In this document: one piece after another, positions 22,389 to 26,459 of the stretch | Layout: each line of letters starts with the position of its first letter | How positions within the stretch are numbered: the stretch's first letter is position 1 | From: Riemerella columbina | Lineage (GTDB): Bacteria > Bacteroidota > Bacteroidia > Flavobacteriales > Weeksellaceae | DNA length: 64,000 nucleotides | Reading direction: 5' to 3' | NCBI RefSeq assembly: GCF_030517065.1 | Contig: NZ_CP103950.1 | Location: forward strand, 1,798,001 to 1,862,000 | Notes under the pieces: model-generated | Database searches by the model: none | Seen by the model: the letters and a program-made list of their open reading frames with translations, nothing else | What the model was told of the DNA's origin: nothing | Position numbers and translations under genes: made by a program

Positions 22389-23045
22389 CTACTCCACTGC
22401 CTTGCCAAATATTTGAAGGAACTGTTCTTGGTCGCTTAGGGCATATTTAGCGTAAGCGTGGAGCTCTCTCATCCAATGGTCTAAGTCAGCGAAGGCTTTA
22501 TTTTTGTCTTTCGTAGATTGCTCGCTTTCGTTTTTCTCCTGAGCATAGGTGGTATAGGCATTTTTGACTTCAACCACTTTAGCCAATTGATTAGTAATAT
22601 CCTCTTGGGTAATTTTTACCCTTGCCAAAGGTGTTCTTAGGCTCTCAACCTCATCAAGGTGGGTATAAAATGCGGTAATCTGCTCCAATAGAACCAAAAT
22701 AGCAGTTGCCGTTTTGATATTTAGCCCTAAGGAAATCTTGGCTTCGGGATTGTTTTTGAAAACCAATCTTGCTTTATTCCTGTGCTCGGCATAGATTTTA
22801 GTCAGTTCATCCATTTTTTGTTTAAAATGGAGGTAGGCGACCTTTTTCTCTTCGGTTTCTTTCTTATTTGTGCCGTAGAGGGCTTGCGCTTTCTCATAAA
22901 GGGCTTTGCCTTTGGTCAGTTCTTCGGTATTATAGCCATAATCATCTAATTTTGTAGAGATGGCATTGTTTGTTTCAATGGTTTTAAAGAGCACTGCGGC
23001 ATTTTGAAGCATTTCTTCGTTGGTAAAATAGACTTTTTGTGACAT
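22389..23045 (-). CDS. uncharacterised coiled-coil protein
   Basis: I do not recognise this 218-residue protein. It has no signal peptide or membrane segment and is rich in Glu, Lys and Ala, with long helical, coiled-coil-like stretches (ELTKGKALYEKAQALYG, KMDELTKIYAEHRNKARLV, SEQSTKDKNKAFADLDHW). A less polar central helix (LNIKTATAILVLLEQITAFY) lies near residue 110. The frame is clean and the start has a -7-type box upstream. Its promoter region is the phased TTCCG array, which makes its expression control unusual. Confidence 0.75.
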   Translation of the reverse strand: MSQKVYFTNEEMLQNAAVLFKTIETNNAISTKLDDYGYNTEELTKGKALYEKAQALYGTNKKETEEKKVAYLHFKQKMDELTKIYAEHRNKARLVFKNNPEAKISLGLNIKTATAILVLLEQITAFYTHLDEVESLRTPLARVKITQEDITNQLAKVVEVKNAYTTYAQEKNESEQSTKDKNKAFADLDHWMRELHAYAKYALSDQEQFLQIFGKAVE

Positions 23046-23078: not shown

Positions 23079-23311
23079 TTCCGTTGCAATTTACACAAAA
23101 ATATGAAACTTTTCTATATTCCGAATATTTTTTTTCATTTTCCGCCAACTAATTTTATTTTCCGCTGTTTTTGGGCTATTTTCCGACATTCATTTTCTAT
23201 TTTCCGCCCTATTTTTTGTATATTCCGCCCTTTATCTTATCCATTCCGCTGCTTTTTTGTGTTATTCCGAATGCTTTTTAAGTTATTCCGCTAATTTTTT
23301 TCTCTGTTCCG
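23079..23311. repeat. phased 21-bp TTCCG array
   Basis: The motif TTCCG recurs with its CCG at 23121, 23142, 23162, 23183, 23204, 23225, 23246, 23267, 23288 and 23309: eight intervals of exactly 21 bases and one of 20. A further one at 23081 lies 40 bases before the first. Only the 5-base core (often T/A-TTCCG) is conserved; the 16 bases between are different pyrimidine-rich sequence. A 21-base period is two turns of B-DNA, so all motifs face the same side of the helix. Read on the minus strand the units are CGGAA, upstream of the coiled-coil gene. Confidence 0.9.
23096..23103 (-). promoter_or_regulatory. -7 box of the coiled-coil gene
   Basis: On the minus strand TATTTTTG fits TAnnTTTG and lies about 50 bases before the start. 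A canonical TTTG -33 box is missing. The first full TTCCG unit (23119-23123) falls near that place, so the array begins where the -33 element would be. Confidence 0.5.
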
Positions 23312-23505: not shown

Positions 23506-23994
23506 ATGAAATCTTATTCTCTCCTGCCGAACTATTATCAGAAGATAGGTTAGGCAATTTTAGTTCCTTCGCTAATGATTAGCGTGGTTTATTTTATTGG
23601 TTTTTTGGTGCCTGGTGATGAATGGGCTTGGCTTAGCCTGCTCGAACAATGGCAAATAACGGTACCTGCAATTTTTTCTAACCAATGGCTTAATGATGAG
23701 GCTTCTTTTACGCTCGTTCGGACGCCTATTATCAATCTGGTGGCTGTTTTGGTGATTATTGGTGGGCTTTTGGTCGGTTTTAGCCAAGAAAAAGAGGAAG
23801 ATGAGTATATTGCGAGCCTTAGGCTGCGCGCTGTGTTATGGAGTTTGCTCGTTAGTTATGTAGTTTTCCTTATGCTGTACTTGACTTTATATGGTCTTAT
23901 CTTTTTGGAGGTCATTTTATTGCAAGCGTTTTTGCCTTTGTTGCTTTATATCTTTCGTTTTCGTTATCTTTTGTCTAAAAATTATGAAAAATAA
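23506..23994 (+). pseudogene. membrane protein gene with in-frame TAG at codon 16
   Basis: After a strong promoter, ATG 23506 starts MKSYSLLPNYYQKIG, then a TAG (23551-23553), then the same frame continues AILVPSLMISVVYFIGFLVP to a stop at 23994. A single G-to-A change from TGG (Trp) would explain it. The remaining protein has four hydrophobic helices (two before and two after a charged QEKEEDEY loop). Translation could restart at ATG 23575, losing the N-terminus and part of helix 1. It overlaps the XRE gene by 11 bases, so the two were made together. Family not identified. Confidence 0.65.
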
Positions 23995-24189: not shown

Positions 24190-24233
24190 TAAACCTCCAT
24201 TCCTATTTAATATAGGTGTGGAGGTTTGTTTTT
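24190..24233 (+). terminator. terminator after XRE gene
   Basis: Stem AAACCTCCA / TGGAGGTTT (24191-24199 with 24219-24227) with an inner CCTAT / ATAGG pair, then GTTTTTG. Confidence 0.85.
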
Positions 24234-24314
24234 GCCTTTTGAGGCTTTATTTTAAGGCTTTGGAGGGTTATTTTATCGATTTTAGATATTATTTTGATGC
24301 TCATTAGCCTTGTT

Positions 24315-26459
24315 TTAGTCCTCTGGGTGGTCTTCGGCTTGTTTTTCATCTAAATAACGGTAGTGGTTCCAAAGGAGGCGTATTTCGTGGTATTCAAAAT
24401 CTTCTGGGAGGTGCTTTTTCCAATCGTTAAGGTTCTCCTGTGGGGCTTTCTGGTACTGTTCACGGAAGCGTTGATCTTTCTCTTTGCTAATGATTCGGCT
24501 CAAATCTAATAATCCACGCTCAGCGAACTTCGCCAGATGTCCATAAATGGTAGAAGGCACCAAGTTGCGCTCTTCGGCAATCTCTGCAATGGTCTTGCCT
24601 TGCTCAAAAAGTTGAAAAGTGAGGATATGCGTGGGCACTTTTAGAGCGTTGATTTCTACTTTGGTGTCATTCTGCGCATCAAAGAGGGCAGTTTCCATTA
24701 AATGGGCGGTTTTGAGCTGGTTGAGGTAGTCCTCTAAGTCTTCTAAAAGGGTATGGGTAACCTCGTTGAACGCCTTTAAGCCCTTGGCGCCTTTGGTTTC
24801 GGCATAAAAATGCTTAATGGGTGTAAAGAATTCGTTGTGAACTTCATTATAATAGAAATTAACGGCGCCTCGGGTTTTCTCTTCTATGCTCTGCCAAGTG
24901 TCCTGCCCTTGCCCCATCTTATGCACCTTTGCGGCGATAATCTTTTGCAACTTCTCATAGATGGTATTCCAATTTTTTAGCTTAGGGAGGAGGGCTTGGT
25001 AAAGTTTTTCGGCTTTGCGGCGGTTTAAATCGCGAGAGACCAAGGCTTGATTGTACCAATTGCCCCAATCCCGCTCAAACCAAAGCGGCTCTATGCGAGA
25101 GAGTACCTTATCTAAGGCGTAAGCGTGCTTTTCGGTGTTGATGATTTCGGTGATGCGCTCGTTGGCGTGGGTATCGTCTTGAAAGCGATTAACACGGCGG
25201 TCATTAAATACGGCATTTTTGGTAATTTCGGATTTGAGAATGATGCCTTGGAGGGTGCGGCAGCGCGAAAGTGCTACATAAACCTGCCCCGAGGCAAAGG
25301 ATTGCCCTGCATCTATAATCACCCTATCAAAAGTAAGCCCTTGGGACTTGTGGATGGTGACCGCCCACGCCAAACGGATAGGATATTGCTCAAAACTGCC
25401 TAAGACTTCCTCCTCCACGCTCTTGTCTTCGCCCAAGGTATAGCGTTTGTTTTCCCAAGTTTCTTTTTTTAGGGTATAAGTTTTGTCATCGCCCTCTATC
25501 AGGACGGTAATTTCTGTGGGAGAGAGCACCATAACCTCTGCGAGTTTGCCATTATAATAGTGGCGCTCGCCACTGGCATCGTTGCGGATGAACATAATCT
25601 GTGTACCGACTTTAAGCTCCAGCTCCTCATCGTTAGGGTACTGGTTTTCTTTAAACTCGCCAGTGATTTTGGCTTTATAAGTATAAGATTTTCCTTTGAG
25701 TTCTTGGAGTTTTTTCTGGTTGATGCTATCCGCCATCTTATTATGCGAGGTCAAATAGACATAGGTTTCCTTCTGGGGTTCAAAATCGGGGAGGTAGCGT
25801 TCATTGAGCTGTTGGTAGCCTTCATCACTCAGGTGCCCTTCTCTAATTTCATTGAGGATTTTTAAAAAATCTTCATCTTTTTGTCTGTAAACCTTGGTGA
25901 GCTCTATGGTGATGAGTTCTAAGTTCTCTAACGCCTTAGCGCTGAAGAAAAACGGGGTTTTGTAATACTCACGGAGGATGTTTTCATCTCTTACCACTGG
26001 TGGCAGCTGGTGTAAATCTCCAATGAAGAGCATCTGCACGCCTCCGAAAGGCTTTCCGTTCCTTCTGATGTGCCTTAGGGCGAAATCCATCATATCTAAG
26101 ACATCGGCGCGGAGCATTGAGACCTCATCAATGATGATTAACTCCACCTCACGGAGTAGTTTGAGCTTATTCTTTCGGAATCTGAAGTGCTTGAACAAGT
26201 CTGCGATGTTATTGCCCAAGCGCTCATCCACCCTATCATGTGTTGGAAAGAACGCGCGCAATGGTAAGCCAAACATCGCGTGTATCGTGACTCCTCCAGC
26301 GTTAATCGCGGCGATGCCCGTGGGCGCCAGAATGATATGGCTCTTCTTGGTACGCCTCACGAAGTCCATTAGAAAGGTGGTTTTTCCTGTTCCTGCTTTG
26401 CCCGTTAAAAAAACGGAGCGATTGGTAAATTCTAAAAGCTCAAAGATGTCCGAATTCAT
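24315..26459 (-). CDS. Pif1-like SF1 helicase with C-terminal helix-turn-helix
   Basis: Cytosolic DNA helicase, 714 residues. Superfamily 1 motifs in order: Walker A SVFLTGKAGTGKTTFLMDF (about residue 20), Walker B ELIIIDEVSMLRADVLDMM (about 110), GGVQMLFIGDLHQLPPVV, and the late WAVTIHKSQGLTFDRVIID (about 375) followed by YVALSRCRTLQGI. The C-terminal 200 residues carry a helix-turn-helix (KTIAEIAEERNLVPSTIYG) as in RQC/HTH_40 tails. Common in Bacteroidota; the exact role (replication, G-quadruplexes, repair) is not shown by the sequence. Confidence 0.9.
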   Translation of the reverse strand: MNSDIFELLEFTNRSVFLTGKAGTGKTTFLMDFVRRTKKSHIILAPTGIAAINAGGVTIHAMFGLPLRAFFPTHDRVDERLGNNIADLFKHFRFRKNKLKLLREVELIIIDEVSMLRADVLDMMDFALRHIRRNGKPFGGVQMLFIGDLHQLPPVVRDENILREYYKTPFFFSAKALENLELITIELTKVYRQKDEDFLKILNEIREGHLSDEGYQQLNERYLPDFEPQKETYVYLTSHNKMADSINQKKLQELKGKSYTYKAKITGEFKENQYPNDEELELKVGTQIMFIRNDASGERHYYNGKLAEVMVLSPTEITVLIEGDDKTYTLKKETWENKRYTLGEDKSVEEEVLGSFEQYPIRLAWAVTIHKSQGLTFDRVIIDAGQSFASGQVYVALSRCRTLQGIILKSEITKNAVFNDRRVNRFQDDTHANERITEIINTEKHAYALDKVLSRIEPLWFERDWGNWYNQALVSRDLNRRKAEKLYQALLPKLKNWNTIYEKLQKIIAAKVHKMGQGQDTWQSIEEKTRGAVNFYYNEVHNEFFTPIKHFYAETKGAKGLKAFNEVTHTLLEDLEDYLNQLKTAHLMETALFDAQNDTKVEINALKVPTHILTFQLFEQGKTIAEIAEERNLVPSTIYGHLAKFAERGLLDLSRIISKEKDQRFREQYQKAPQENLNDWKKHLPEDFEYHEIRLLWNHYRYLDEKQAEDHPED

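Follow-up and report, generated by a model that had tools for sequence, protein, structure and literature searches.

A phased 21-bp TTCCG array before a PQLLE family gene of Riemerella columbina, considered as a possible iterated operator

The genomic window considered here, a stretch of 64,000 nucleotides from Riemerella columbina, contains a short motif, TTCCG, that recurs in almost perfect helical phase close to the start of a coiled-coil gene. What does such an array do, and does it belong to the gene beside it? A sequence-only reading of the window had suggested a binding platform in helical phase or, alternatively, a DNA-end or partition type of element. In this work, we describe the array and the adjacent gene, follow both of them across the Bacteroidota, and weigh the possible functions of the arrangement. 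The coordinates of the features are collected in Table 1.

Table 1. Features of the array region in the window
Feature	Position	Strand	Remarks
TTCCG array, ten cores, 20/21-bp steps	23119..23311	+	unit = core + T-rich part
Eleventh TTCCG core	23079..23083	+	two steps (40 bp, 20 each) off the array, beyond the -7 box
TATTTTTG, -7 box match (TAnnTTTG)	23096..23103	-	position -58 from ATG
PQLLE family protein, 218 aa, all-helical, two ~105-aa units	22389..23045	-	NF052641; AlphaFold; half-size profile

The ten cores begin at 23119, 23140, 23160, 23181, 23202, 23223, 23244, 23265, 23286 and 23307, and thus follow each other at steps of 21, 20, 21, 21, 21, 21, 21, 21 and 21 bp. The CCG positions reported in the sequence-only reading are correct, and its eleventh motif is in phase with the ten. 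In the sense direction of the PQLLE gene, the core reads GCGGAA or TCGGAA. The earlier description of five conserved bases surrounded by variable sequence holds for TTCCG itself, which is invariant in 10 of 10 units (2 bits at each position of the information profile), but not for the whole of the rest: TTCCG is followed by C in 7 of the 10 window units, and unit positions 9-15 are biased toward T (about 0.6-1.5 bits), with only the remainder of the unit being nearly random. The unit in the window is therefore an invariant core with a T-rich part about 10 bp off.

Three-unit TTCCG matches occur 8 times in the window versus 0 times in 100 dinucleotide shuffles, so that the 21-bp spacing stands out clearly from shuffled sequence. 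In the whole 2.04-Mb genome there are 38 such matches and none of the reversed pattern, and three further TTCCG arrays are located at 521, 1234 and 1309 kb. When overlapping 330-bp segments of the window are considered with the array excluded, 2 of 386 attain a weak period-21 chain of five; these two are not TTCCG-type arrays, and the region is AT-rich. As a separate observation, five T-rich heptamers (TTATTTT or TTGTTTT) are placed at exact 21-bp steps between converging genes at 24226-24330 of the window; they are weak, and may be the remains of an array or no more than a chance feature of AT-rich DNA. The array at 1309 kb (L016, 1308772-1309252) comprises about 24 units with a 62-bp higher-order repeat (21+21+20), is mostly common to the 1234-kb array, and adjoins an apparent decayed LysR-type gene.

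A protein-level repeat can be discarded, as had been argued from the sequence, because the 20-bp steps break the frame and the arrays sit upstream of genes. The make-up of the array is also not that of a CRISPR array, since just a five-base core repeats, every 20 or 21 bp; no cas gene was found among the neighbouring ORFs examined.

The adjacent gene, whose start is 34 bp from the eleventh core, matches the NCBIfam family NF052641 (PQLLE family) with 208.1 bits (cut-off 80, E 1.2e-61), a family name to which no function is attached. The AlphaFold model of its product (mean pLDDT 91) consists of helices only, and contains two copies of an arrangement in which short helices lead into a 56-residue helix and a further short helix. 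There is no separate N-terminal domain in this model, which begins with two helices running into the 56-residue helix. Half-size relatives of about 105 aa, which fall below the NF052641 cut-off, contain a single copy of the unit that is doubled in PQLLE proteins: the model of a 105-aa relative is one such helical copy, and a profile built from half-size proteins aligns with each half of many full-size ones (two-domain matches). No known DNA-binding domain was found in the window protein, which has neither a Pfam family nor a Pfam or NCBIfam HTH match. The PDB sequence search was negative, and fold searches, including PDB and viral structures, gave no significant match for either the 218-aa or the half-size model. 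The family carries almost no net charge, which is a point against DNA binding by PQLLE. The association with arrays, the internal duplication and the existence of half-size relatives are described here for this family; in the open-access PMC literature, nothing was found on PQLLE or on 21-bp arrays in this group.

The genome contains four full-length PQLLE copies, one truncated copy (955 kb) and two half-size relatives (982 and 1168 kb). The locus at 955 kb (L012) is a C-terminal remnant adjoining an apparent insertion-sequence fragment. The family is patchy, with matches in 18 of 120 genomes of the taxonomic family (15 over the cut-off) and with members over the cut-off in 6 of 396 genomes of the phylum. 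Collections of plasmids, phages and viral contigs contain no homologs, and a phage or plasmid origin was rejected on this ground. The neighbours of the window gene are VanZ-like, small membrane, HTH and Pif1-like genes. At 23506-23994, a 139-aa membrane ORF has an apparent upstream in-frame extension (MKSYSLLPNYYQKIG) that is ended by a TAG at about 23551; this ORF overlaps an XRE-type HTH gene (to 24187), and the two form a membrane protein and regulator pair.

To relate arrays to genes, we used 53 non-redundant loci of PQLLE relatives, chosen by protein homology alone, and a blind array statistic, namely the longest chain of a 7-mer with one mismatch allowed and steps of 20-22. An upstream array of at least five units at period 21 is present at 34 of the 53 loci, while none has such an array at periods 15, 18, 24 or 27, or downstream. 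The 37 strong arrays have steps of 21 (227 times), 20 (14 times) and 22 (3 times). Distant members show the linkage as well, in other families of the Bacteroidota (L304-L308, L326, L328, L334, L336, L344, L349-L351), and one locus picked up by the TTCCG pattern only (L019) turned out to adjoin a PQLLE gene. About a third of the members, chiefly distant ones, are without a clear array, which is a point against the arrays being binding sites of these proteins. Marinifilum fragile (G925; L144, L406-L420) has a TTCCGC array and about a dozen PQLLE-related genes, with a clear upstream array at L406 only and most of the distant paralogs there having none.

Upstream of the homologs, the period is the same but the letters are others. 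Even within the genome of the window, the cores of the paralogs are of the GCGGAA, GGAGCA, GTAAAGGG and CAACCGC types, at a constant period. Because the core letters change from paralog to paralog, a scan of the genus for TTCCG, as had been recommended, is nearly empty: none of five congeners has a TTCCG array, and G003 has a lone three-unit match. The letters thus fail as a search key, whereas the conserved gene context sought in that scan is recovered through the gene family; the context is the coiled-coil gene family itself. The same arrangement in other letters before most relatives suggests that each protein may bind its own array.

Promoters of Bacteroidota have a -7 box with the consensus TAnnTTTG. 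In the window, the array abuts the -7 box and its first core occupies the -33 position of the PQLLE promoter, in agreement with the sequence-only reading; taken with the eleventh core, it straddles the promoter, and only the unit that would cover the -7 box is absent. For the 37 strong arrays, the median distance between array and ATG is 76 bp, and in 19 cases versus 8.7 expected a TAnnTTTR box separates the last unit from the ATG; given this excess, the array lies at the promoter or upstream of it. A bound strip straddling the promoter would favour, rather than prove, autorepression. In L305, L307 and L308, the last unit forms an inverted repeat resembling a terminator (TCCGGCAACATTGCCGGA with a T run) immediately before an apparent complete promoter.

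The symmetry of the units provides a different kind of evidence. If a half-size protein binds as a homodimer, palindromic units are expected, and if the full-size protein is a fused dimer, an asymmetric site is expected. Units of significant dyad symmetry are found at 7 of 10 half-size loci versus 1 of 36 full-size loci (Mann-Whitney p = 4.8e-5 in a per-unit test; averaging the columns had given a weaker result, p = 0.002), where the half-size proteins come from four genera only and the comparison is accordingly not free of shared ancestry. The half-size palindromes are unrelated in sequence, for example TCCCA..TGGGA, GGTAA..TTACC, AAAGC..GCTTT and GTAGGA..TCCTAC. This match between protein and site is the strongest argument that the protein would itself read the DNA. 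A general rule of two sub-sites one helical turn apart was also considered, but the information profiles of 33 arrays do not bear it out uniformly, and we do not claim it.

Among 12 close relatives with four cores, the type of core tracks a basic N-terminal arm, six or seven residues long (p = 2e-4 by permutation), more closely than it tracks the body (p = 0.025). In particular, L285 and L292 have bodies that are 98% identical and differ in core and arm, and L286 and L292 have bodies that are 96% identical and unrelated arrays, leaders and arms. The latter two look like one locus in two species, their downstream DNA being 90-97% alike. Note that the arm adjoins the array, so that their joint replacement may simply reflect linkage within a single recombination block; the association of arm and core may serve as a lead to specificity, short of proof.

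In our view, the array is probably a cis-linked iterated operator of the adjacent PQLLE protein, which would coat it cooperatively and control its own gene. One full-size protein, a fused dimer, would occupy each 21-bp unit, and in the half-size form one homodimer would do so. Since all units are on one face of the DNA, the proteins could line up next to each other and form a cooperative nucleoprotein strip; this strip would cover the -33 region and thereby control the promoter, most likely by repression, and same-core arrays at other places in the genome would serve as further targets. The binding platform in helical phase proposed earlier is thus supported as a reading, in which we infer the binding itself. 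A bolder version, which we offer tentatively as possible rather than probable, is that the family constitutes an undescribed class of sequence-specific DNA-binding proteins of the Bacteroidota that has neither an HTH nor a ribbon-helix-helix. In this class, a coiled-coil homodimer of ~105-aa chains would recognise palindromic 21-bp units, or a duplicated chain asymmetric ones; the basic N-terminal arm would set the core, and arm and array would be swapped together, giving each paralog a private and fast-rewritten array code.

Other explanations are conceivable. Some other regulator or nucleoid protein might bind the array, with the PQLLE gene being just its commonest target and the PQLLE protein doing something else. 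The failure to find a DNA-binding fold in PQLLE and the existence of orphan arrays near unrelated genes agree with this, but we consider it unlikely, because the cores of paralogs differ within one genome, so that one regulator per paralog would be needed, and because the site symmetry tracks the size of the PQLLE protein, which a third party does not predict. The persistence of this half-size symmetry, together with period and position, while the letters turn over, also makes it quite improbable that the array is a mobile or slippage minisatellite, carried along with the gene and without a role in binding. A minisatellite would account for the different unit numbers of the close orthologs L011 and L291, for the 62-bp higher-order units shared by the 1234-kb and 1309-kb arrays, for the many orphan arrays in convergent gaps and for the patchy distribution. 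However, the cores in the window are invariant and the rest has drifted, which neutral decay would not yield, and a hitchhiker need not keep to one gene family phylum-wide.

The array might instead act as RNA, either as a leader or as units of ~21 nt that contact a protein or a target RNA. We regard this as very improbable: in spite of the strand asymmetry of the units at full-size loci, which are purine-rich on the sense strand of the gene, and of the constant unit size near 21 nt, the likely -7 boxes counted above lie between array and ATG, the dyad symmetry at half-size loci suits recognition of a duplex by a dimer, and no Rfam match was obtained at E up to 1. A role in single-protein partition or chromosome anchoring, with centromere-like arrays and PQLLE as adaptor, seems to us still less probable. 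Plasmid stability loci typically have repeats ahead of the gene for a helical binding protein (KfrA, PMC7783346), and several same-core arrays are present on one chromosome; against this, the mobile-element collections mentioned above hold no homolog, no NTPase partner adjoins the PQLLE gene (in particular, there is no ParM- or TubZ-like NTPase of plasmid partition type II/III among its neighbours), and the family is absent from most relatives. The suggestion of a DNA-end element is not supported so far.

Returning to the proposed operator, arrays with such cores also occur with no adjoining PQLLE gene. They were sought by core patterns only (two were used), and their counts are lower bounds. 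These arrays are found in genomes that carry PQLLE, namely that of the window and G002, G004, G005, G076 and G100, which agrees with the model. With the two core patterns, the PQLLE-free genomes searched give only scattered matches resembling coding or simple repeats, and one unrelated three-unit match in G006. According to our reading, about half of the orphan arrays precede a gene and the other half occupy gaps between convergent genes, so that not all of them need be regulatory. An orphan at 864 kb in the genome of the window, with the core GTAGGA, has no intact same-core PQLLE gene, and the orphan core of G005 has no exact PQLLE partner; neither of the two agrees with the model in its simplest form. 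In G100, a nine-unit array GAAGATAATCCCTCTACACGT lies between converging genes at 877 kb (L363), and its core is unlike those of the PQLLE arrays of that genome.

A letter search for TTCCG in 85,000 species yields, among the matches listed, mostly coding 21-bp repeats; the non-coding arrays among them belong to Bacillota, Prevotella and other groups. Marinifilum fragile is the only one of 16 genomes with such arrays that has PQLLE over the cut-off, and these arrays are therefore a separate matter. They include non-coding 20/21-bp TTCCG-like arrays in Bacillota (L145, L122, L109, L134, L112), and in Prevotella and viral contigs (L099, L208, L239), whose cores are partly palindromic, e.g. TTCCGGAA. 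The Bacillota and Prevotella array genomes tested have no PQLLE gene; Lysinibacillus has several such arrays per genome. On one viral contig (L186, 112-300), a TTCCG array with 21-bp steps is immediately upstream of an XRE-like gene.

With the operator model, PQLLE, a family that is unannotated and patchy across the phylum, gains a concrete and cheaply testable function. More generally, a regulatory architecture can escape homology searches when its period and symmetry are kept and its letters are not. Should binding be confirmed, the protein would add a further fold to those that recognise DNA, and its natural paralogs, each with its own core, would offer a ready collection for decoding specificity.

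Several known systems resemble this arrangement in part. ParR-parC and StbA-type plasmid sites consist of phased direct repeats upstream of the gene of their binding protein, and the PQLLE array likewise consists of phased direct repeats upstream of the gene of its proposed binder; in contrast, the PQLLE locus is without an NTPase partner, a plasmid context and a detected ribbon-helix-helix. BrickBuilt of Porphyromonas gingivalis is a minisatellite within a MITE, with 23-nt repeats and leader and tail subunits (PMC4596501). Like the PQLLE arrays, it consists of short tandem repeats spread over intergenic regions of a Bacteroidota genome, whereas the PQLLE arrays are composed of degenerate 21-bp units with a fixed core and have a linked gene family. 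KfrA of the IncU plasmid RA3 is an almost entirely alpha-helical, monocistronic and oligomerising protein with an N-terminal HTH, and it autoregulates via an iterated direct-repeat operator of five 9-bp repeats that overlaps its own promoter on the plasmid (PMC7783346). The PQLLE system differs in that no HTH was found, the units are 21 bp long, the locus is chromosomal, and there are several paralogs and an exact half-size form; as the defining HTH is missing here, we do not claim membership. What is proposed is an iterated-operator autoregulator from a family that is not known to bind DNA. By analogy, KfrA may nevertheless be considered the nearest functional counterpart, since the PQLLE protein is also helical and coiled-coil in its AlphaFold model and has direct repeats at its own promoter, with the first core at -33.
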